From positions 1 to 42,962 of the forward strand of contig QHRU01000081.1 in the NCBI GenBank assembly GCA_003220225.1: a DNA stretch of 42,962 nt, in the 5' to 3' direction. Positions within the stretch are counted from its first letter, which is position 1. Every line of letters begins with the position of its first letter. The stretch comes from Candidatus Rokuibacteriota bacterium (GTDB lineage Bacteria; Methylomirabilota; Methylomirabilia; Rokubacteriales; CSP1-6). The notes under the pieces were generated by a model. The model did not search any database. It was given only the letters and a program-made list of their open reading frames with translations, and was not told the DNA's origin. The position numbers and the translations under genes are program-made. Shown piece by piece: positions 4,124-29,812 of the stretch.

Positions 4124-4206
4124 CTCAGCGGAACGCGCGGAAGAACGCGCGCACGTCCTCGGCCAGCGCGGCGGGCTCCTCGAGCGCGGCGAAGTGTCCG
4201 CCCGAC
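4124..4206 (-). pseudogene. Detached duplicate of the epoxide hydrolase 3' end
   Basis: These 83 bases are identical to 4298-4380, the last 27 codons of the epoxide hydrolase gene, including the His-containing GGHFAALEEP segment and the stop. Upstream of the duplicate the reading frame runs into the dispersed palindromic element at 4216-4290 through TWQASGGHF rather than the EMKSGGHF of the intact gene. It is therefore a fragment, either a tandem duplication or the remnant of a second, very similar hydrolase. Confidence 0.8.
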
Positions 4207-4215
4207 GCCTGCCAC

Positions 4216-4290
4216 GTGGGGGGCCCCGACATGGCCCCCCACACCCCCCCGACGCTCGGAGCGGCCCGGCGAAGCCGAGCCGCTCCTCGA
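4216..4290 (+). repeat. Dispersed palindromic element, copy 1
   Basis: Full-length member of a repeat family with two hairpins. Hairpin 1 (4217-4241) has the arms TGGGGGGCC and GGCCCCCCA around a short loop; hairpin 2 (4258-4286) has the arms GGAGCGGC and GCCGCTCC around CCGGCGAAGCCGA. It ends with CTCGAT. It lies between the two 83-bp copies of the hydrolase 3' end. Other copies are at 5467-5575, 7102-7177, 10272-10350, 10374-10447, 14416-14437 and 29203-29318. Confidence 0.85.
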
Positions 4291-4298
4291 TCGCCCGC

Positions 4299-5450
4299 TC
4301 AGCGGAACGCGCGGAAGAACGCGCGCACGTCCTCGGCCAGCGCGGCGGGCTCCTCGAGCGCGGCGAAGTGTCCGCCCGACTTCATCTCCGTCCAGCGCCG
4401 GAGGTCCGTGTATACGCGCGACACCCACGCGCGCGGCGGGTGCAGGATCTCCTTCGGGAAGGCGGCGTAGGCCGCCGGCGCCGTCACGGGTTGCCTGGCC
4501 GTGATCGGCCACGGCGAGTGGTTGCGCGCGTAGTAGGGCCAGAAGGACGAGTTGATGGCGCCGGTGACCCAGTAGAGCATCACGTTCGTCAGCAGCGTGT
4601 CCTTGTCGAAGCGTCGCTCGACGTCTCCGTCGCAATCGCTCCACGCGCGGAACTTCTCGACGATCCACGCGGCGAGCCCCACCGGCGAGTCGGTCAGCCC
4701 GTACGCCAGCGTCTGCGGCTTCGTGCCCTGGATCGCCTGGTAGCCGGTCTCCTCGCGCAGCCAGTGGTCCAGCTCCTCGAGGTACGCGCGCTCGTCCGGC
4801 GCCGGTGTCGCAGCGGGCGCGCCGCGGTCGCGCGGCACCGCCAGGAGGTTGACGTGGACGCCGACGAGCTTGTCGGCGTGCGCGGCGCCCAGGTACGACG
4901 TCACGAAGGCGCCCCAGTCACCGCCCTGCGCGGCGAAGCGCGCGTAGCCGAGCACGTCGGTCATGAGCGTGGCGAAGAGGTCGGCCATCTGCGGCACGCT
5001 GAAGCGCGTCTGGTTCGGCTGGAACGAGAACGTGTAGCCCGGCAGTGAAGGCGCGACGACGGTGAACGCGTCAGCCGGATCGCCGCCGAAGCGCGCCGGA
5101 TCGGTCAGCATCGGGACCAGCCGCCGGAATTCGACGATCGAGCCCGGCCAGCCGTGCGAGAGCAGCAGCGGCATCGGGCGCGGCCCCACCCCGGGCTCGT
5201 GGATGAAGTGCAGGTCGATGCCGCCCAGCGCCACGGTGAACTGCCGGCGCGCGTTGAGCTCCACCTCCTGCGCGCGCCAGTCGTAGCGGTCGCGCCAGTA
5301 GCCGACGAGCGACTTCATGTAGGCGAGGTCGGTGCCGTAGCGCCACGGCTCGCCGGGGATCTCGTCGGGCCAGCGCACGCGCGCCAGGCGCGCGCGCAGG
5401 TCGTCGAGCACGGCGTCGGGCACGCGGATGGTGAACGGGCGGGGCGTCAC
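4299..5450 (-). CDS. Epoxide hydrolase (alpha/beta hydrolase with EHN domain)
   Basis: A 383-residue microsomal-type epoxide hydrolase, which opens epoxides to diols through a covalent ester. The N-terminal EHN domain (about 1-110) begins PFTIRVPDAVLDDLRARL and carries the oxyanion-hole HGWPGS (99-104). The nucleophile is Asp178 in QGGDWGAFV, and the catalytic His is His361 in SGGHFAALEEP. The cap-region Tyr residues expected in the family are plausibly in LYWVTGAI and RNHSPW surroundings. Length is normal. The last 83 bases are duplicated downstream on the far side of a dispersed repeat (see 4124-4206). Upstream of the start lies another pair of repeat copies. Confidence 0.93.
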   Translation of the reverse strand: MTPRPFTIRVPDAVLDDLRARLARVRWPDEIPGEPWRYGTDLAYMKSLVGYWRDRYDWRAQEVELNARRQFTVALGGIDLHFIHEPGVGPRPMPLLLSHGWPGSIVEFRRLVPMLTDPARFGGDPADAFTVVAPSLPGYTFSFQPNQTRFSVPQMADLFATLMTDVLGYARFAAQGGDWGAFVTSYLGAAHADKLVGVHVNLLAVPRDRGAPAATPAPDERAYLEELDHWLREETGYQAIQGTKPQTLAYGLTDSPVGLAAWIVEKFRAWSDCDGDVERRFDKDTLLTNVMLYWVTGAINSSFWPYYARNHSPWPITARQPVTAPAAYAAFPKEILHPPRAWVSRVYTDLRRWTEMKSGGHFAALEEPAALAEDVRAFFRAFR

Positions 5451-5466
5451 GGCCGGAGATTATAGA

Positions 5467-5575
5467 CGTGGGGGGCCCCGAAATGGCCGTTCGATAAACG
5501 TGGGGGGCCCCGAGATGGCCCCCCACACCCCCCAGCGCTCGTCGCGCCCCGGCGAAGCCGTGGCGCGCCTCGATG
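5467..5575 (+). repeat. Dispersed palindromic element, a half copy followed by a full copy
   Basis: A truncated unit at 5467-5488 (hairpin 1 broken off after GAAATGGCC) is followed after ten bases by a full unit at 5499-5575 with both hairpins and the terminal CTCGATGACGC. The pair fills the gap between the divergent-looking upstream end of the epoxide hydrolase gene and the 3' end of the DUF4142 gene. Confidence 0.85.
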
Positions 5576-5578
5576 ACG

Positions 5579-6208
5579 CTATCTCGCCGGCGGGCAGCTT
5601 CCGAAGTTCGAGCCTGCGGCCGGTGCGTAGGCGCCCTGGCACCACGGGATGATCAAGGCCGCGGGCAGCGCCGCCGGCGCTGGAACGGGACCGAGCACGA
5701 CTTCCGAGTTCACCTGCCGCGCCAGCGCGAGGTGGTCGCGCAGCATCGGCAGCGACCGCGTCGCCCACGCCTTGAGATCCGGATCCGAGGAGATCTCCGC
5801 CGCGCGCTCGAAGAGCGCGATGTCCTCCGTGTGGTCGCGGACGATCTCCGACATGTAGGCGCGATCGAAGTCGGGGCCGCTGAGCCCGCTCAGCCGATCG
5901 CGCATCGCCTGCTGCGACGGCTCGAGCGCCGTCGGCACGTCGAGACCCTTGCGGCGGGCGAGCGCCGCCAGCTCCGCGTTGGCGCGGCCGTGGTCGGCCA
6001 CCATGCGCTCGGCGAAGGACCGCACGGACGGCCGGACCGCGCGCTGCGTTGCGACGCGTCCGAGCTCGACCTCGGCCGTGCCGCCTGTCGCGGCCTTGCT
6101 CACGAACTCACGATCCGCCTCGTTCACCAACTGGATTTGAGCCGCCGCCGGACCGGTCAGGGCGACCAGCGCCGCGGCGACGAGGCTGATGATGGTCAGC
6201 ACCTTCAT
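5579..6208 (-). CDS. DUF4142 family secreted protein
   Basis: A 209-residue protein with a Sec signal peptide (MKVLTIISLVAAALVALTGPAAAQ) followed by a DUF4142 helical-bundle domain, about residues 28-165. Family hallmarks are the DREFVSKAATGGTAEVELG opening, the RSFAERMVADHGRANAELAAL segment and the FDRAYMSEIVRDHTEDIALFE segment with its conserved His. The fold is ferritin-like in related families; a biochemical role is not established. The C-terminal 40 residues (Pro/Ala-rich, ending FGSCPPAR) lie outside the domain. A strong ribosome site, GAGGAGGAGT, precedes ATG 6208. It is divergent from the aldolase gene. Confidence 0.88.
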   Translation of the reverse strand: MKVLTIISLVAAALVALTGPAAAQIQLVNEADREFVSKAATGGTAEVELGRVATQRAVRPSVRSFAERMVADHGRANAELAALARRKGLDVPTALEPSQQAMRDRLSGLSGPDFDRAYMSEIVRDHTEDIALFERAAEISSDPDLKAWATRSLPMLRDHLALARQVNSEVVLGPVPAPAALPAALIIPWCQGAYAPAAGSNFGSCPPAR

Positions 6209-6312: not shown

Positions 6313-7101
6313 GTGCGAGAAAACCGCCTCAAGACGATGTGGAAGCGCGGCGAGACAGCGGTCAACGGGTGGCTGTCGATTCCCACGGCCTTCACGGCCG
6401 AGGTCATGGCGCACCAGGGCTTCGACTCGCTGACCGTCGACATGCAGCACGGCGTGGTGGATTACCAAACCGCCGTCTCCATGTTCCAGGGTATCTCCAC
6501 CACGGGCGTGATGCCCTTCGCGCGCGTGCCGTGGAACGACCCGGCGTACCTGATGAAGATCCTCGACGCCGGCGCGTACGGCGTCATCTGTCCGATGATC
6601 AACACGCGCGCGCAGGCGGAGGCGCTGGTGGCCGCGTGCAAATACCCGCCCCGCGGCTACCGCTCCTTCGGTCCCGTGCGCGCCTCGATCTACGCCGGCA
6701 GCGATTACGTCGAGCGCGCCAACGACGACATCGTGATCATGCCGATGATCGAGACGGCGGAGGCGCTCAAGAACCTCGACGCGATCCTCTCGACACCGGG
6801 GGTGGACGCGATCTATGTCGGTCCCTCGGACCTGAGCCTGGCGCTGGGCTGCAAGCCGAGGCTCGACCAGACGGACGCGCCGGTGGTAGAGGCGCAGCAG
6901 CAGATCGTCGAGGCCTGCAAGCGCCACGGCGTCATCGCCGGCATCCACAACGCCACCGCCGCGTACTCGCTCAAGATGATCGCCGCCGGCTATCGCTTCG
7001 TCACCCTCGCCAGCGACTCGCGCCACCTCGCGCTGAAGGCGGCCGAAGAGGTGGCGGCCGTGCGCAAGACCGTGGGCGGCGGCGTGGTGCCGGCCTATTA
7101 G
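6313..7101 (+). CDS. HpcH/HpaI family class II aldolase
   Basis: A 262-residue aldolase of the HpcH/HpaI family, TIM-barrel enzymes that use a divalent metal to cleave or form 2-oxo-acid aldols with pyruvate. Recognisable stretches are VDMQHGVVDY (near 42), FARVPWNDPAYLMKILDAG, GAYGVICPMINT, the metal-ligand Glu in MPMIETAEALKNLD and the YVGPSDLSLALG loop. The GTG at 6313, seven bases after AGGGAGAG, is preferred over an upstream ATG at 6268. A small hairpin, GGGCG-TATC-CGCCC, lies just before the ribosome site. The physiological substrate cannot be read from the sequence. Confidence 0.92.
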   Translation: MRENRLKTMWKRGETAVNGWLSIPTAFTAEVMAHQGFDSLTVDMQHGVVDYQTAVSMFQGISTTGVMPFARVPWNDPAYLMKILDAGAYGVICPMINTRAQAEALVAACKYPPRGYRSFGPVRASIYAGSDYVERANDDIVIMPMIETAEALKNLDAILSTPGVDAIYVGPSDLSLALGCKPRLDQTDAPVVEAQQQIVEACKRHGVIAGIHNATAAYSLKMIAAGYRFVTLASDSRHLALKAAEEVAAVRKTVGGGVVPAY

Positions 7102-7177
7102 ATGGGGGGCCCCGACATGGCCCCTCAAACTCCCCAACGCTCCGAGCGCCCCGGGGAACCCGGGGCGCTCCTCGATG
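7102..7177 (+). repeat. Dispersed palindromic element, copy inside the NUDIX gene start
   Basis: A full element with both hairpins (hairpin 2 arms GAGCGCCCCGG / CCGGGGCGCTC) begins directly after the aldolase TAG and ends with CTCGATGACGC. It supplies the only ATG codons (7102, 7117) and about 25 codons of the following NUDIX open frame. Confidence 0.85.
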
Positions 7178-7782
7178 ACGCGCTTCGCGCGAGGGCGGTC
7201 GCGCATCTCGCGGCGTTCGAGCGGCGCGGGCTGCCGGTCGACGGGCGGCGGCCGGCTGCCGTCGCCGTCGTGCTGCTGAGCGACGATGCGGGCCGCGCGT
7301 GCTTTCTCCTCACGCGCCGCGCGGCCGGCCTGCGTAAGCACGCCAGGCAGTGGGCGTTGCCGGGGGGACGGCTCGAGCCCGGCGAGTCGGCGCTCGAGGC
7401 CGCGCGGCGCGAGCTCTCGGAGGAAGTCGGCCTCACGCTCGGCGCCGACGCGGTGCTCGGCCTGCTCGACGACTATCCGACGCGCTCGGGCTTCCTCATC
7501 ACCCCGGTCGTCTTCTGGGGCGGCGCCGACCCCGTGCTGGCGCCGAACCCCGACGAGGTCGCCTCCGTGCACCGCGTCCCGCTCCAGGACCTCGACCATC
7601 CCGACGTGCCGCGCCTCGTGACGATTCCCGAGAGCGACCGGCCCGTCATCCAGGTGCCGCTGCTCTCGACGCTGGTGCACGCGCCGACGGCGGCCGTCGT
7701 CTACCAGCTGCGCGAGGTCGTGATGCACGGCCGGCCGACGCGCGTCGATCACTTCGAGCAGCCCGTGTGGGCGTGGGGATAG
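7102..7782 (+). CDS. NUDIX hydrolase with a repeat-derived N-terminus
   Basis: A 226-residue NUDIX hydrolase of the CoA pyrophosphatase-like type, which hydrolyses nucleoside diphosphate linkages. The complete Nudix box, [20 protein letters not shown] followed by VGL, covers about residues 90-112 (G-x5-E-x7-REL-x-EE-x-GL). Before it lies the [12 protein letters not shown] strand typical of the CoA-type subfamily. The first 25 residues ([20 protein letters not shown]) are translated from a dispersed palindromic element; no other in-frame start exists before the conserved domain begins near residue 27. ATG 7102 touches the preceding TAG (TAGATG), allowing reinitiation; ATG 7117 is the alternative. 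It is followed two bases later by the selenoprotein gene. Confidence 0.9.
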
Positions 7783-10271: not shown

Positions 10272-10350
10272 GATGACGAGGGCCGTCACGGCTGCGCCGG
10301 GGCGGCCCGAGCGCTTGGGGGGTTTGGGGGGCCATGTCGGGGCCCCCCAT
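10272..10350 (-). repeat. Dispersed palindromic element, inverted copy a
   Basis: Reverse-orientation copy: hairpin 2 side first (gccgggg-like arms near 10296-10310), then GGGGGG(C) hairpin 1 at 10325-10350. It fills the gap after the binding-protein gene. Confidence 0.8.
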
Positions 10351-10373
10351 CACACTAGGGGCCTGTCGGAGTA

Positions 10374-10447
10374 TCGAGGGGTGCCACGGCTTTGCCGGGG
10401 CGCCCCGAGCGTGTGGGGGGTATGGGGGGCCCTTCGGGGCCCCCCAT
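10374..10447 (-). repeat. Dispersed palindromic element, inverted copy b
   Basis: A second reverse-orientation copy beginning with TCGAGGGG and ending with the CCCCCCAT arm at 10439-10447. Its hairpin 1 loop is CCTTCGG rather than CATGTCGG. With the preceding copy it forms a head-to-tail pair occupying most of the 218-base gap before the CACHE-domain gene. Confidence 0.8.
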
Positions 10448-10468
10448 GTCACTGGGTATGCTCGGGCG

Positions 10469-21309: not shown

Positions 21310-21927
21310 TGAACGCCCGTCGTCAGCCTGCACGACCTGCCACACCCGCTGAACGACCGGCCACACCGGCTCGCCATCCGCGGCAAGGCCTCGACGGCAG
21401 CGACCTCGAGCCGCAGCTCGCGCGCACTCTGACGTTCACCCGCTGCGCGGCGGTCGCCGAGCGCCTGCTCGGGCGCCCCGTCGAGCATCGCTTCGATCAC
21501 GCCATCTACAAGCCCGCCTTCAACGGCGCGGCCACGTCCTGGCACCAGGACGAGGCGTACGCGCTCGAGCGGAAGATCCTTCAGCGCGCATTTCTGGGTG
21601 CCCCTCCAGGACGTCACGCGCGACATGGGGTGCATGGAGTTCATCCCCGGCGGCCCCCGGGGTGCGCTCGGGCGTCATCACCGGCGCGATCGCCTGCGCG
21701 ACGCGCACGCGCTGGAGCTGGTCGGCCTGGACGCGTCCCACGCGGTGCCGTGTCCGATCCACGCGGGCGACGCGACGGTGCACTTTCCGCGCACGGTCCA
21801 CTATACCGGGCCCAGCCGGACCGGCACGCCGCGTCTGGCGTGGGCGCTCGAGTTCGGTCCCCGGCGCGGGCTCGGCGTTCGCCTGATGGCCAAGGCACGC
21901 CTCGTCTGGCGCCGCGCCACCCGCTGA
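21310..21927 (+). pseudogene. Phytanoyl-CoA dioxygenase (PhyH)-like pseudogene
   Basis: Three pieces of a PhyH-type Fe(II)/2-oxoglutarate dioxygenase lie in different frames: SLHDLPHPLNDRPHRLAIRGK (near 21330-21390), GLDGSDLEPQLARTLTF through SWHQDEAYALERKILQRA (to about 21590) and FWVPLQDVTRDMGCMEFIPGG through AWALEFGPRRGLGV (to 21927). The metal-binding HxD is in SWHQDEA and the distal His in FPRTVHYTGPS. At least two frameshifts (about 21388 and 21590) and a missing N-terminus make it nonfunctional, unless they are assembly errors. Confidence 0.85.
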
Positions 21928-21970: not shown

Positions 21971-22100
21971 CGCGAGGCCGGGGTCGTGTGAGAGCCGTGT
22001 CTTCTGGGTATTGCGTCGGTTCCGGCGGTAACTTCGTGGCTCGCTGACGAGGCGCAGCGCAACGTCGATTTGCGTGCTCGAACACGACCCCGCCCGCGCG
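21971..22100 (+). repeat. Structured repeat element A (covarying terminal stem)
   Basis: A conserved core (21996-22075; starts CGTGTCTTCTGGGTATTGCG, ends GTCGATTTGCGT) is enclosed by an inner 4-bp stem GAGC/GCTC (21992-21995 with 22076-22079), a tandem GA/GA pair (21990-21991 with 22080-22081) and an outer stem of 11 uninterrupted pairs, CGGGGTCGTGT with ACACGACCCCG, with more pairs beyond. Element B at 29418-29550 shares the core at roughly 85 % but has entirely different stem sequences that still pair. It lies between the PhyH pseudogene and the convergent 3' end of the 664-residue gene. Confidence 0.8.
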
Positions 22101-22128: not shown

Positions 22129-24123
22129 TCAGCGCTTCTTGAAGGGTGAGTCTTTGGCGAGCGTGGAGGGCGCGGCCTGCGGCTGCGGGGGCTTCAGCGG
22201 TGACGTCGCCTTACGCTTGAGCGCAACTGTCAGCTCGTAGCGCTTGTCGGCGTTCGGATCGGAATTGAAGGCGGCGATCCACACCGCGCGATGCTGCTTG
22301 CCGAGCTGCTCGACTTTCGTGCCTCCCGGGCGGTGCCTGCGCGGCGCCTCGGGCTTGCCGTCCATCGGCGCTACCACGACCCACGCGTGGTCGGTGGGGG
22401 CGCCGTTCTCCGTGAGGTGGATGTCGAGATCGGTCGGGTCGGAGAGCGCGCCGGCCTGCACGCTGAAGAACCGCGTGGTGAGCGGTCCCGTCGTGACGCT
22501 GAACGTGTGCGTCGTGAATCGCTCGGCCGGCGTCGTCAGCGTGCGCGACTGCTCCGGGCGACCGCCCGGCCGCTCGGGCCGCGTCACGATCGTCGTCGAC
22601 TCTGGCGCCTCCGTGATGGCGCCCTGCAGCCACACGCCGGGCTTCGGCAGCGCGTGGCCGAGAACGTCCTTGAGGAAGTCCGGATAGGTCTTGTAGAGCC
22701 GGCCCTCGGCCACGACGTAGAGGTAGAGCTCCTGGCCGAGCGGATAGGTCTCATTCCGCGCGCGCGTCGTGAACTGGGGGTTGAGGCGCGTGAGCGCCTC
22801 CCTCACGAACCCGGGCTCCTCCTTCTCGAGGCGCTGCAGCAGGATCGCGTAGCCCTCGGCCAGCCGTCCGTCGTCGAACTCGTCGCTCTTCGCCAGCGGC
22901 ACCGAGAGCAGGTACGGGAACCGCTCGAGCGTGTCGCGCGCCGCCTCGGCGGGCGCCAGGCGGCGCTGGACGAGCGACTCCCAGCCGCGGCGCGCGCCGA
23001 CCCACCACTGCGCGGTCTCCTCGGCCAGACGTTCGAGCAGCTCCTCGCGCTCGCGCCGCTGCTCCGGCGTCTCGACCTGCACGCGCTCGCCGCTCAATCG
23101 GATCTCGACCACGAGCGGCGAGCCCGGCGGGGCGACACGGCCACCCGCGACGACCGGCGGGCTGCCGCTGGTCACGACCCCGCCCGGCGTGGTGACGACG
23201 ACGGCGGGCGGCGGCACGAGGGCCGGGCCCCTCGGGCCGACGGATCTGCCGCCGCCCGCCGGCACACCGCCGGTGACAGGAACACCGCCAGCCGCTGGAG
23301 CAGCGCCCCCGAAGCGCGGTCCGTCGTCGGCCGCCGAGGCCGCCACGTAGCCCTCAGGCGCCGCCTCAGCCGGCGCGGCCGGCACGTAAGCCGCCGGCGC
23401 CGTCTGGTCCGGCGCGGCGGGAGCGTACCCGGCCGCCGGCACGAAATCCGTCGGCTCGGGGGCGTCGATGATCTCGCCCTCGTGACCGAGCTTGCCACGC
23501 AGCGCCGCGAGCGCGAGCGGGCGGCCAAAATTCTGGGTGATCGCGTCGTGCAGCGACGAGCACCGCTCGTCGTCGAGCTGGTTCCACCCGTCGGCGAGCG
23601 TGATGAGCTCGACGAACGGACGGATGTGCTCGCTCAGCATCGTCGTCTCGCGCTCGACGTCCGCGGGCTCCGCCGCCGACAGCGCGGCGTGCAGCTCGCG
23701 GGCTTTGGCCTGACCGTCGGCCAGCGCGGAGGCGTCCTTGTCCTCGCGGTGGATCAGCGTCATGACGCGGTCGAGCACGCCCAGCGCGTTCTCGCGCGCC
23801 GCCTCCCACGCCGTGCGGCGCGCGCGCTCGGCCTCCACCCGCTCGAGCGCGCTGACGAGCGCGCCGAGGGCCTTCAGGGTGCGGATCCTGGCGGGATCGG
23901 GCGCGCCCGCGAACGCACTGGCTTCCTCGAGGAGAGCCACGCGCAGCTCGTCGAAGTCGGCGGACGTCTCCCGGAGGTCGTCGAGGAGCGCCTGGGCGGG
24001 GGCCGCGCTGGCTCTGACCTCGGCGGCGGCTGTGGCGGCGCGCCCCCCGACCTCCGCGAACCGGGTACGCAGGGCCGCGAGTCGCTGCCGCAGGTCATCC
24101 AGACGAGCGGGGGTTGGCGTCAT
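22129..24123 (-). CDS. Large protein of unknown function with coiled-coil and linker
   Basis: A 664-residue protein of unrecognised family, without signal peptide or membrane helix. Residues 1-210 are helical and Ala/Arg/Glu-rich, with coiled-coil character (LDDLRQRLAALRTRFAEVGGR). Residues 225-340 are a low-complexity Pro/Ala/Gly/Val linker (VPVTGGVPAGGGRSVGP). Residues 345-645 look folded: a mixed region with REELLERLAEETAQWWVGARRGW, then several Thr-rich beta-strands (RTLTTPAERFTTHTFSVTTGPLTTRFF; DPTDLDIHLTENG) and a basic C-terminus. ATG at 24123 follows TATACT at 24144-24139 at a leaderless-like distance. It shares its upstream region with the divergent mlaC gene. Confidence 0.75.
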   Translation of the reverse strand: MTPTPARLDDLRQRLAALRTRFAEVGGRAATAAAEVRASAAPAQALLDDLRETSADFDELRVALLEEASAFAGAPDPARIRTLKALGALVSALERVEAERARRTAWEAARENALGVLDRVMTLIHREDKDASALADGQAKARELHAALSAAEPADVERETTMLSEHIRPFVELITLADGWNQLDDERCSSLHDAITQNFGRPLALAALRGKLGHEGEIIDAPEPTDFVPAAGYAPAAPDQTAPAAYVPAAPAEAAPEGYVAASAADDGPRFGGAAPAAGGVPVTGGVPAGGGRSVGPRGPALVPPPAVVVTTPGGVVTSGSPPVVAGGRVAPPGSPLVVEIRLSGERVQVETPEQRREREELLERLAEETAQWWVGARRGWESLVQRRLAPAEAARDTLERFPYLLSVPLAKSDEFDDGRLAEGYAILLQRLEKEEPGFVREALTRLNPQFTTRARNETYPLGQELYLYVVAEGRLYKTYPDFLKDVLGHALPKPGVWLQGAITEAPESTTIVTRPERPGGRPEQSRTLTTPAERFTTHTFSVTTGPLTTRFFSVQAGALSDPTDLDIHLTENGAPTDHAWVVVAPMDGKPEAPRRHRPGGTKVEQLGKQHRAVWIAAFNSDPNADKRYELTVALKRKATSPLKPPQPQAAPSTLAKDSPFKKR

Positions 24124-27233: not shown

Positions 27234-29287
27234 CGCCCCCGGGACTGCTGGGCGCGGCGCTCCTCTTCTGGGGCTGGCAGACCGGCTTTCTCGCGGTGGG
27301 CGTCGTCATGGCCGCCCTGGTCGAGGGGCGCCACCTCGTCCGCTCGCGCTGGGATCTCTCGCGCACCGATTTCAACCGCGTGTCGGACCTCAGCGCGGTG
27401 TTGCTCGTGCTCATCGCGATCTACCAGTTCGTCGGCACCGACGCGGCGCGCGCCGTGCTGGCCATCCTCGAATGGCTCCCCCTCACCGTGCTCCCGCTGG
27501 TGACGTGCCAGCTCTACAGCACCGCCGGCGTCGTCGACCTCTCGATCTTCTTCTGGAGCCTGCGGCGGCGCGCCAACGAGCACCCCGAGGAGCCGGGATG
27601 GCCGATCGACCTCACGTACCCGTACGTGGCGCTGGCGCTGCTCTCGGCCAGCGCCGCCAACGTGCGCACCGGCGCCTTCTTCGCCGGCGTGGTCGCGCTC
27701 GCGGGGTGGGCCCTCTGGAGCGCGCGGCCACGCCGCTATCCCGCCGCCGTCTGGATCGCGACGCTGGCGGTGGCGGTCGCGCTCGGCTGGGCGGGCCACG
27801 TCGGGATCGCGGCGGCGCAGCGCGCGATGGAGCGCGTGGCGCAGTCGTGGCTCCTCAACCTCATCCGGCGCGACACCGATCCGTTCAAGAGCTCGACCGC
27901 GCTCGGCGAGATCGGCGAGGTGAAGCTCAGCCCGCGCATCCTGCTGCGCGTGGAGTCAGCGAACGGCACGCGCCCGCCGGCGCTCCTGCGCGAGGCGAGC
28001 TACAACGTCTACAACGCGCCGACCTGGTACGCCGTGGACGCTGCGTTCATCTCGGTGTCGCCGGAGGCCGACGGCGCCACGTGGAAGCTCGGCCCCCCCG
28101 TCCCCGAGCGCGGCCGGGTGACGGTCGCCGCCTATCTGCGGCGCGGCAAGGGCGTCCTGCCGGCGCCGAGCGGCGCCCGCCAGCTCGACAACCTGCTCGT
28201 CGTCGAGCTGGCGAAGAACCCCCTCGGTTCCGTGCGCGTGGACGAGGGCCTCGGCCTCGTGCGCTACGCGGCGCATTTCGGTGACGGCACCGCCGACGGC
28301 CCGCCGCGGACGCTCGACCTCGTGGTCCCGCGCAACGAGCAGGCGGCGGTGGAGCGCGCGGCCGCGCAGCTGGGACTCGCCGGCAAGACCCCGGAGCAGG
28401 CGGTCATCGCCGTCCGCGCCTGGTTCAGCAGCCACTTCCGGTACGCGCGCTTCCTGGGCGCGCGGCCGCAGGGCGTGTCGCCGCTCGAGGATTTCTTCTT
28501 CCGCACGCGCGCCGGCCACTGCGAGTACTTCGCGACGGGGACGGTGCTGCTGCTGCGCGCGGCGGGCATTCCCGCGCGCTACGCGATCGGCTACGCCGTG
28601 CACGAGTGGAGCCCGCTCGAGGGCCGCTGGGTCGTGCGCGCCAATGATGCCCACGCGTGGACGCTCGCGTGGGTGGGCGGCGCGTGGCGCGAGATCGACA
28701 CGACGCCGGGCGAATGGATTTCGGCCGAGCGCGAGACGGCGTCGTTCTGGACGCCGCTCGGCGATCTCTGGTCGTGGGCGACCTATCTCTTCTCGCGCTG
28801 GCGCTGGAGCGAACGCGAGGACCGGCTCGCGGGGTCGATCGGATGGCTGCTGGTGCCGCTCATCGCTCTGCTCGCGTGGCGGCTCTATCGGCGCCGGCGC
28901 GTCGCGACGGGTGCGGCGCGGGGCGCCGCCGCCACGGCGCCGCCGCCGCGCCCCGGCGACGACTCGGCGTTCTATCTCGTCGAGCGCCGGCTCGCCCAGC
29001 TCGCATTCCCGCGCGCGCCGGGGGAATCGCTCGTGCGCTGGCTGGCGCGCGTGGAGTCGGCGCGTCCGCCCGCCGTGACGACGGCGGCGCTGCCGGCGCT
29101 CCTGGCGCTGCACTACCGCTATCGCTTCGATCCCGCGGGACTCGGCGCCGCCGAGCTGACCGAGCTCGACACCGGCGCCCGCGAGTGGGTTGCGGCCCAC
29201 GACATGGGCGGCCCCGACATGGCCCCCCAGGCTCATCAAGCGAGGGGAGCGACGCCCCCCTCGGACTCCCCCGGCCAACGCTCGTAG
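27230..29287 (+). CDS. Transglutaminase-like membrane protein (TgpA type)
   Basis: A 685-residue TgpA-type protein: N-terminal membrane helices (about 1-220), a periplasmic transglutaminase-like domain, then one transmembrane segment (WLLVPLIALLAWRLY) and a cytoplasmic DUF4129-like tail. The triad is Cys in RAGHCEYFATGTVLLLRAAG, His in ANDAHAWTLAWV and Asp in WREIDTTPGEW, all within about 420-500. The GTG start overlaps the DUF58 stop by three bases. The last about 30 residues ([19 protein letters not shown]) are translated from a dispersed palindromic element that supplies the stop, so the natural end was probably near 29200. Confidence 0.92.
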   Translation: MTPPGLLGAALLFWGWQTGFLAVGVVMAALVEGRHLVRSRWDLSRTDFNRVSDLSAVLLVLIAIYQFVGTDAARAVLAILEWLPLTVLPLVTCQLYSTAGVVDLSIFFWSLRRRANEHPEEPGWPIDLTYPYVALALLSASAANVRTGAFFAGVVALAGWALWSARPRRYPAAVWIATLAVAVALGWAGHVGIAAAQRAMERVAQSWLLNLIRRDTDPFKSSTALGEIGEVKLSPRILLRVESANGTRPPALLREASYNVYNAPTWYAVDAAFISVSPEADGATWKLGPPVPERGRVTVAAYLRRGKGVLPAPSGARQLDNLLVVELAKNPLGSVRVDEGLGLVRYAAHFGDGTADGPPRTLDLVVPRNEQAAVERAAAQLGLAGKTPEQAVIAVRAWFSSHFRYARFLGARPQGVSPLEDFFFRTRAGHCEYFATGTVLLLRAAGIPARYAIGYAVHEWSPLEGRWVVRANDAHAWTLAWVGGAWREIDTTPGEWISAERETASFWTPLGDLWSWATYLFSRWRWSEREDRLAGSIGWLLVPLIALLAWRLYRRRRVATGAARGAAATAPPPRPGDDSAFYLVERRLAQLAFPRAPGESLVRWLARVESARPPAVTTAALPALLALHYRYRFDPAGLGAAELTELDTGAREWVAAHDMGGPDMAPQAHQARGATPPSDSPGQRS

Positions 29288-29318
29288 CGCCCCGGGGAAC
29301 CCGGGCCGCCCCTCGATT
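29203..29318 (+). repeat. Dispersed palindromic element, copy fused to the transglutaminase end
   Basis: Hairpin 1 begins ATGGGCGGCCCCGACATGGCC (one arm changed), followed by about 45 bases of inserted sequence and then hairpin 2 (GCGCCCCGGGGAACCCGGGCCGC) with the CTCGAT end. It is the longest and most altered copy. Its first 85 bases are translated as the C-terminus of the transglutaminase. Confidence 0.75.
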
Positions 29319-29417
29319 TCCGTGGCCCCTGAGCTCGGCGCGTGCCGAAGCTCGCGCTCCGATTGCTTCCCCCCGACCGAGGCTCGCCCGCCGGGCTGGG
29401 GCGGTGTGCTGCGAGTC

Positions 29418-29550
29418 GGGGAGGCGGCGCGGGGGCGTGAGGCCCGTGTCTTCTGGGTACTGCGTCGGACCCGGCCGATAATCGTGGCTCGCTGACTTCG
29501 CGCAGCGCTCTGTCGATTTGCGTGGCCGAACGCCCCCGCGCCGCCTCCCC
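29418..29550 (+). repeat. Structured repeat element B (covarying terminal stem)
   Basis: The outer stem is a perfect 21-bp inverted repeat (29418-29438 with 29530-29550, ending GGGGGCGT and starting ACGCCCCC). Inside it are a tandem GA/GA pair (29439-29440 with 29528-29529), an inner stem GGCC/GGCC (29441-29444 with 29524-29527) and the conserved core 29445-29523 (CGTGTCTTCTGGGTACTGCG to GTCGATTTGCGT). It sits between the transglutaminase gene and the convergent GIY-YIG gene, 20 bases from the latter's stop. Confidence 0.8.
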
Positions 29551-29569
29551 GGCTCGCTGCGCGCGTCGG

Positions 29570-29812
29570 TCAGCGCAGCAGGGCGAGCTTCTCCGAGCGC
29601 GGCAGCCGCTTGATCGCGGCTTCGCGCCGCGACGCGGTCGCGCGATCCGGCCAGGGTTCGGACCACACCAGCCGCACCGGCCGACGCGTCCGCGTATACT
29701 TCGACGCCGACCCGTCGTTGTGCCGGGTGACCCGGCGCTCGAGCGCGGGCGTGATGCCCGTGTACAGCGAGCCGTCGGCGCACTGAAGGAGGTAGCAGAA
29801 CCAGCGTGCCAC
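29570..29812 (-). CDS. Small GIY-YIG nuclease-family protein
   Basis: An 80-residue single-domain protein of the UPF0213/YhbQ type. The GIY-YIG-like motif is CYLLQCADGSLYTGITPALERRV, followed by the Arg-containing helix RRVTRHNDG and the Tyr of SKYTRTRRPVRLVWSEPW. The Glu of the active site (SRREAAIKRLPRSEK) is in its usual place. The GTG start at 29812 overlaps the divergent gene by seven bases. A nuclease role in repair is known for some relatives only. Confidence 0.88.
   Translation of the reverse strand: MARWFCYLLQCADGSLYTGITPALERRVTRHNDGSASKYTRTRRPVRLVWSEPWPDRATASRREAAIKRLPRSEKLALLR

Follow-up and report, generated by a model that had tools for sequence, protein, structure and literature searches.

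Our results identify a family of hairpin elements dispersed through genomes of Candidatus Rokuibacteriota, and sequence comparison establishes its fold and the strand on which that fold is kept, its compensatory evolution in place, its gain and loss between genomes, and its placement before the 3' neighbouring gene. Two copies, A and B, lie in the window, by which we mean the whole stretch of 42,962 nucleotides that was analysed, and they are among the roughly 49 copies carried by the host, a soil bacterium (genome of 6.03 Mb in 167 contigs searched). The element is probably a new repeated RNA, which may mark or guard gene ends. We tentatively suggest that it is a dispersed structured RNA of one Rokubacteria family that may act in cis as a directional boundary.

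A and B have a common core within enclosing stems that are specific to each locus and still pair, and the geometry put forward in the original prediction is right at both sites. A recount bears out the 11 uninterrupted outer pairs of A together with its GAGC/GCTC inner stem and its GA/GA. For B, the inner GGCC/GGCC and the GA/GA hold while the proposed 21 outer pairs do not, since the recount gives a run of 28 uninterrupted pairs, made up of 22 Watson-Crick pairs, a G.U and 5 more. The features are as follows.

21598..21927, + strand: end of the gene to the left of A (PhyH dioxygenase)
21974..22097, + strand: whole element A; covariance-model match of 126.3 bits (R1) and 114.6 bits (R2)
21979..21989, + strand: 5' arm of the outer stem of A (CGGGGTCGTGT), partner 22082-22092; pairing decays beyond
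21990..21991, + strand: 5' GA of the tandem GA/GA of A, partner GA at 22080-22081
21992..22079, + strand: inner stem and conserved core of A, long type (CGTGTCTTCTGGGTA ... GTCGATTTGCGTG)
21992-21995 and 22076-22079, + strand: inner stem of A, GAGC/GCTC
22082..22092, + strand: 3' arm of the outer stem of A (ACACGACCCCG)
22129..24123, - strand: gene facing the 3' side of A, no Pfam match; stop 36 nt from the 3' arm of A
29411..29438, + strand: 5' arm of the outer stem of B; 28 uninterrupted pairs, one of them G.U
29439..29440, + strand: 5' GA of the tandem GA/GA of B, partner at 29528-29529
29441..29527, + strand: inner stem (GGCC/GGCC) and conserved core of B, long type; 129.9 bits (R1)
29441-29444 and 29524-29527, + strand: inner stem of B, GGCC/GGCC
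29530..29557, + strand: 3' arm of the outer stem of B
29570..29812, - strand: gene facing the 3' side of B, GIY-YIG domain; stop 12 nt from the 3' arm of B

The gene facing A is kept in the congeners G002 and G001. The gene facing B encodes a single GIY-YIG nuclease domain; relatives without B conserve this region too, which makes a link between the two unlikely. Compared with shuffled sequences, B folds far beyond chance (z = -8.35) and A, taken alone, is unremarkable (z = -1.35), so the case rests on the further copies.

The copies in the host genome are dispersed or form head-to-tail arrays (five on contig C96, six on C136 and three on C124) in which a single palindrome serves as an arm for two adjacent copies. 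In every copy, the conserved core spans about 86 nt and is bounded, from inside to outside, by an inner stem of 4 bp, by a tandem GA/GA or its Watson-Crick equivalent, and by an outer stem; the whole element measures about 150 bases, and intact outer stems average 30 bp. The cores fall into a long type (CGTGTCTTCTGGGTA ... TCGTGGC) and a short type (CGTGTTTCGGGTA ... TCGGTGC), represented in the host by 21 and 27 copies, respectively. Nearly all typed copies from other genera are long, and the short type therefore looks derived in the host's genus. Across the family a near-invariant 5' strand (GACCCGUnnCUUCUGGG) and 3' strand (GCGUGGUC) enclose a variable stretch, and there are genus-specific core subfamilies. 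When the same site is compared between genomes, short-type cores apparently substitute for the older long type. Tree-like descent of cores by site was not supported, as within the genus the cores of positional orthologs resemble each other no more than those of paralogs do (identity 0.839 and 0.838, respectively), a parity that may reflect core exchange or saturation.

The host and its relatives also carry many copies of another dispersed hairpin repeat (GGGGGGCCCCGACATGGCCCCCC ... GCGCCCCGGGGAACCCGGGGCGC), in which a small stem varies between copies and still pairs; one of these relatives is G012, in which we did not find the main element. In the window this second repeat is present at the following positions.

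4217-4296, 5498-5579, 7101-7181, 10277-10449 (reverse) and 29204-29317: copies of the GGGGGGCCCCGACATGGCCCCCC ... GCGCCCCGGGGAACCCGGGGCGC repeat

Identical 83-bp direct repeats at 4124-4206 and 4298-4380 flank the GGGGGGCC repeat at 4217-4296; the arrangement resembles either a long duplication created on insertion of a repeat or an artefact of assembly. We also observed broken copies of the main element in which one arm is swapped for the GGGGGGCC repeat (two genomes) or for a GTGCGAAGCCGCAGGCCGTTCGACGGCC repeat (two genomes); these lie at L066 2298-2418 and L081 2557-2643, and at L092 2579-2696 and L073 2514-2634.

Support for a structured RNA, one of the two original readings, comes from covariation among many copies, from compensatory changes in place and from a strand bias of wobble pairs. 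Outer stems of the further copies vary from locus to locus and still pair. Over 20 pairs (16 outer and 4 inner), 25 host copies are 96.4% paired, both partners have changed in 17 of the 20, and the covariation score is 0.674 compared with 0.186 in shuffles; for 34 copies from many genera, the corresponding values are 98.7%, 18 of 20, and 0.850 compared with 0.188. When the partner was slid by 1-3 columns as a control, only 39-49% of positions paired, the host copies giving 41-45%. The tandem GA between the stems, claimed to be invariant, is present without being so: among 101 copies it is GA/GA in 74 and TC/TC in 1, and the other combinations are mostly Watson-Crick (GA/TC in 6, GC/GC in 6, CA/TG in 2). 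Tandem G.A can adopt a sheared geometry, and the pattern fits a sheared tandem G.A that is replaceable by normal pairs. No covariation was detected inside the core, the sequence of which hardly varies and so gives no such signal. Stems of different copies have a median identity of 0.54, arm similarity between loci is uncorrelated with core similarity (r = -0.01), and even copy pairs with cores at least 90% identical have arms that are only 0.56 identical. This independence implies either that cores are exchanged between sites or that arms diverge much faster.

Which strand folds is indicated by the imperfect stem pairs. These were chosen for counting because complementarity, where perfect, might arise at the level of DNA, and the same rule was applied to G.U and A.C. 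Read on the core strand, copies in the genus have 67 G.U and 14 A.C pairs (p = 2e-9), with a G.U excess in 33 copies and an A.C excess in 4; copies from other genera have 31 and 6 (p = 4e-5), and a further, partly overlapping set has 41 and 21. Since the opposite strand would present A.C pairs and TC/TC in place of G.U pairs and GA/GA, the core-strand fold is the one kept. The selected form is probably RNA of this strand, and single-stranded DNA of the same strand may be an alternative.

The stems also change in concert at fixed sites. In 13 orthologous comparisons with flanks about 80-93% identical, in which the copies compared are not statistically independent, 103 stem pairs have changed: 53 on both sides with pairing retained (44 from Watson-Crick to Watson-Crick and 9 through G.U), 20 on one side to or from G.U, and 30 to a mismatch. 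These comparisons indicate that the two arms of a copy evolve together while its site stays the same, which explains why arms at unrelated loci are unrelated. Copies with intact stems occupy the same site across genera (L065:2758 with L035 and L036; L158 with L185). Flank alignments show that orientation is kept in about 30 ortholog pairs and opposite in five (L180/L190; L065:9951 and L073:2514; L067 and both L081 and L095; L019 and L039; L170 and L102:2492), the latter being what recombination between the arms would be expected to produce.

Inspection of flanking sites in relatives, proposed with the original prediction, revealed empty sites as well as three orthologous sites with coreless or part-core hairpins. 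A's site reads TGA-CCC-TCA in G002, leaving 3 bp between the stops, and is a 9-bp gap in G001, with no hairpin in either. The element is absent from B's site in G002, G001 and G018, and at least one of the two congeners also lacks it at the sites of the C136 array, C121, C113:152, the C53 pair and C126:54308; the covariance model found nothing at those element-less congener loci. The C136-array site is 12 bp long in G001 and the C121 site 10 bp in G002, again with no hairpin. With so many orthologous sites lacking the element, no copy seems essential. As for the reduced forms, the copy at L206 (G015) has shrunk to a hairpin that retains the core piece GCGCGGTCGAGC, which makes it a deletion product, while L208 (G015) carries a coreless hairpin where a relative has the full element, and L136 (G001) carries one at the equivalent of the C126:54308 site. 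Internal deletion is the simplest explanation for all three, the two coreless hairpins being ambiguous with insertion of a core into a hairpin.

Placement relative to genes, called with a simple codon-model gene caller, is directional. Of the host copies, 30 lie between convergent genes (arrays included), 13 have both genes running against the element and 6 have both in its direction; none lies between divergent genes, and only 1 of 46 does in a larger, partly overlapping collection taken from other genera. A and B, both on the + strand, do lie between convergent gene ends as predicted, a location that does not hold for the family in general. The 3'-side neighbour is nearer than the 5'-side neighbour for 27 of 31 non-array host copies (p = 3e-5), including 13 of 14 at convergent sites, and for 17 of 19 copies from other genera (p = 7e-4); in G002 alone the count is 7 of 13, that is, the bias is absent. 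From the end of the 3' arm to the facing stop codon the distance is mostly -7 to 54 nt with a median of about 14 nt, a spacing that recurs in this larger collection. The stem is followed by no U-run, the T fraction of the next 20 nt being 0.12-0.14, and upstream of the copies there is no shared promoter motif, information reaching at most about 0.3 bit per position.

Searches with a cross-genus model found the element in 37 of 57 genomes of one Candidatus Rokuibacteriota family, with up to 37 copies per genome at a strict threshold, and in none of the 38 genomes searched from the rest of the phylum. A contig filed with an Acidobacteria MAG (L061, QHVJ01000296.1) is 98.9% identical to host contig C109, element included, and is probably mis-binned. 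Carriage by phages was rejected after two pattern scans of viral contigs yielded no element and a single exact match that is not one. The expectation that the sequence belongs to no known family held up: Rfam 15 gave no match at gathering scores, relaxed matches being long-hairpin microRNA models far below threshold, and the Rfam intron models did not match either. Our literature search on Rokubacteria repeats found no description of such an element. Y1 (RAYT/TnpA) transposases had no matches in the host and both congeners and occur in 11 of the 57 family genomes, mostly not the copy-rich ones, and reverse transcriptase (RVT_1) occurs in 20 of the 57 and is absent from many copy-rich ones. An association with either enzyme was therefore rejected, as neither tracks the element across genomes. 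A larger autonomous parent was likewise rejected, the host genome containing no separated core halves or larger form. That the stems are ordinary terminators of the host was discarded because long coreless hairpins are rare in its genome; outside genes, perfect ones number 4 in about 86 kb and come from other repeats.

In our model of a directional boundary, RNA in the + direction would run through the element from the convergent gene, from an upstream gene, or from antisense or divergent transcription. As the polymerase nears the 3'-side neighbour, this RNA would fold into the stem of about 30 bp, interrupted by the sheared-type tandem GA and presenting the conserved internal core. The folded RNA would be terminated there or processed by cutting, and the 3' neighbour would thereby be shielded from read-through or antisense transcription. 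The strand bias, the free 5' distance, the scarcity of copies at divergent sites and the fact that stems persist are all consistent with the model. Against it, the short distance is that to the facing gene, the mRNA of which carries the opposite strand, there is neither a U-run nor a shared promoter motif, and the placement bias is absent in G002; moreover, it leaves the origin of the copies unexplained. That the element represents a new class of dispersed RNA element, combining a conserved core, freely co-evolving arms, reading from one strand, a directional transcription boundary and spread without a recognizable transposase, we regard as rather unlikely.

A possible alternative, which we hold with some doubt and consider nearly as likely as the boundary role, is a selfish, non-autonomous, MITE-like element, the core strand of which, as RNA or single-stranded DNA, is mobilized in trans by a putative enzyme, its position at gene ends reflecting target choice and tolerance. 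The abundance of copies, the tandem arrays, clean presence and absence between congeners, genus-specific core subfamilies, apparent replacement of long by short cores in place and the patchy distribution (37 of 57 genomes) all speak for it. It is harder to reconcile with the failure of Y1 transposase and reverse transcriptase to track the copies, the host and most copy-rich genomes having no Y1, with the lack of a split or larger autonomous form in the host genome, with arms that differ even between copies with cores at least 90% identical, and with stems that, unlike dead insertions, still pair in place across genera. Both the selfish and the boundary reading may be true together. The original prediction also considered an element that inserts into hairpin loops; in such a reading the core alone would be mobile and pre-existing long hairpins such as terminators would supply the arms. 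The unrelated arms at different loci (r = -0.01 with core similarity) and the coreless hairpins at L208 and at the G001 equivalent of C126:54308 agree with such insertion, but it is improbable given the hairpin-less sites of 3 and 9 bp for A (G002 and G001), 12 bp for C136 (G001) and 10 bp for C121 (G002), the rarity of coreless hairpins in the host, the L206 remnant with GCGCGGTCGAGC, which indicates that internal deletion yields such hairpins, and the co-evolution of stems in place.

Two further readings assign the element to a conventional transcript. It might be the 3'-end element, a terminator or RNA stabilizer, of the facing gene, acting in an mRNA that is the strand opposite the core. 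With a median distance of about 14 nt between stop codon and 3' arm, the hairpin lies where a terminator usually would, but on that strand the wobbles become A.C (98 compared with 20 in total), GA/GA becomes TC/TC and no U-run follows, and transcription-linked mutation on the coding strand would bias the pairs in the opposite direction, leaving this reading with little probability. Even less credible is a multi-copy gene for a trans-acting small RNA with its own promoter; although a core conserved on a single strand and discrete ends would suit it, we find no conserved upstream motif (about 0.3 bit at most), no terminator run, and about 49 copies at unrelated sites.

Among described repeats, the closest are small dispersed palindromic repeats and bacterial MITEs such as ERIC/IRU, Correia/NEMIS, RUP, RPE and YPAL (PMC2229807). 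Like these, the element is about 100-200 bp long, non-coding, intergenic, lineage-specific and patchy, with tens of copies and, in its putative transcript, long pairing between the 5' and 3' ends. The terminal repeats of MITEs are a shared recognition sequence, whereas the arms of the element are locus-specific and covary around a conserved centre, and no terminal inverted repeats of the ERIC, Correia or RUP kind are common to its copies. It is furthermore very GC-rich, no parent transposon was found, and no TA ends or target duplication were seen in intergenic sequence too diverged to define ends. REP/REPIN sequences with their RAYT are also extragenic palindromic repeats, single or in arrays, but REPs conserve the palindrome and co-occur with a Y1 transposase, in contrast to an element with an unconserved stem in a host without Y1 (PMC3116915). 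Intrinsic (Rho-independent) terminators share the GC-rich hairpin at gene 3' ends; the element differs in that its stem, about 30 bp long, encloses a conserved core of 86 nt and is not followed by a U-run, and in a placement and wobble bias that suit the strand running against the facing gene. The TRIT-type terminators of mycobacteria are a conserved terminator motif that follows stop codons on the mRNA strand. With the structured RNAs curated in Rfam 15 the element has in common a conserved core with covarying stems. Because it lacks shared arms, a Y1 partner, a known parent, a U-run and an Rfam match, we regard it as an undescribed RNA family within the dispersed-repeat kind.

Dispersed hairpin repeats of bacteria normally conserve the arms that are recognized, and the element reverses this relation. 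Owing to the strength of compensatory change, the copies come near to being independent replicates of one fold, and they make a covariance model of this undescribed RNA family directly available. With its presence and absence, inversions, tandem arrays and broken arms, the family offers natural experiments on a multi-copy RNA hairpin at gene ends in an uncultivated phylum.
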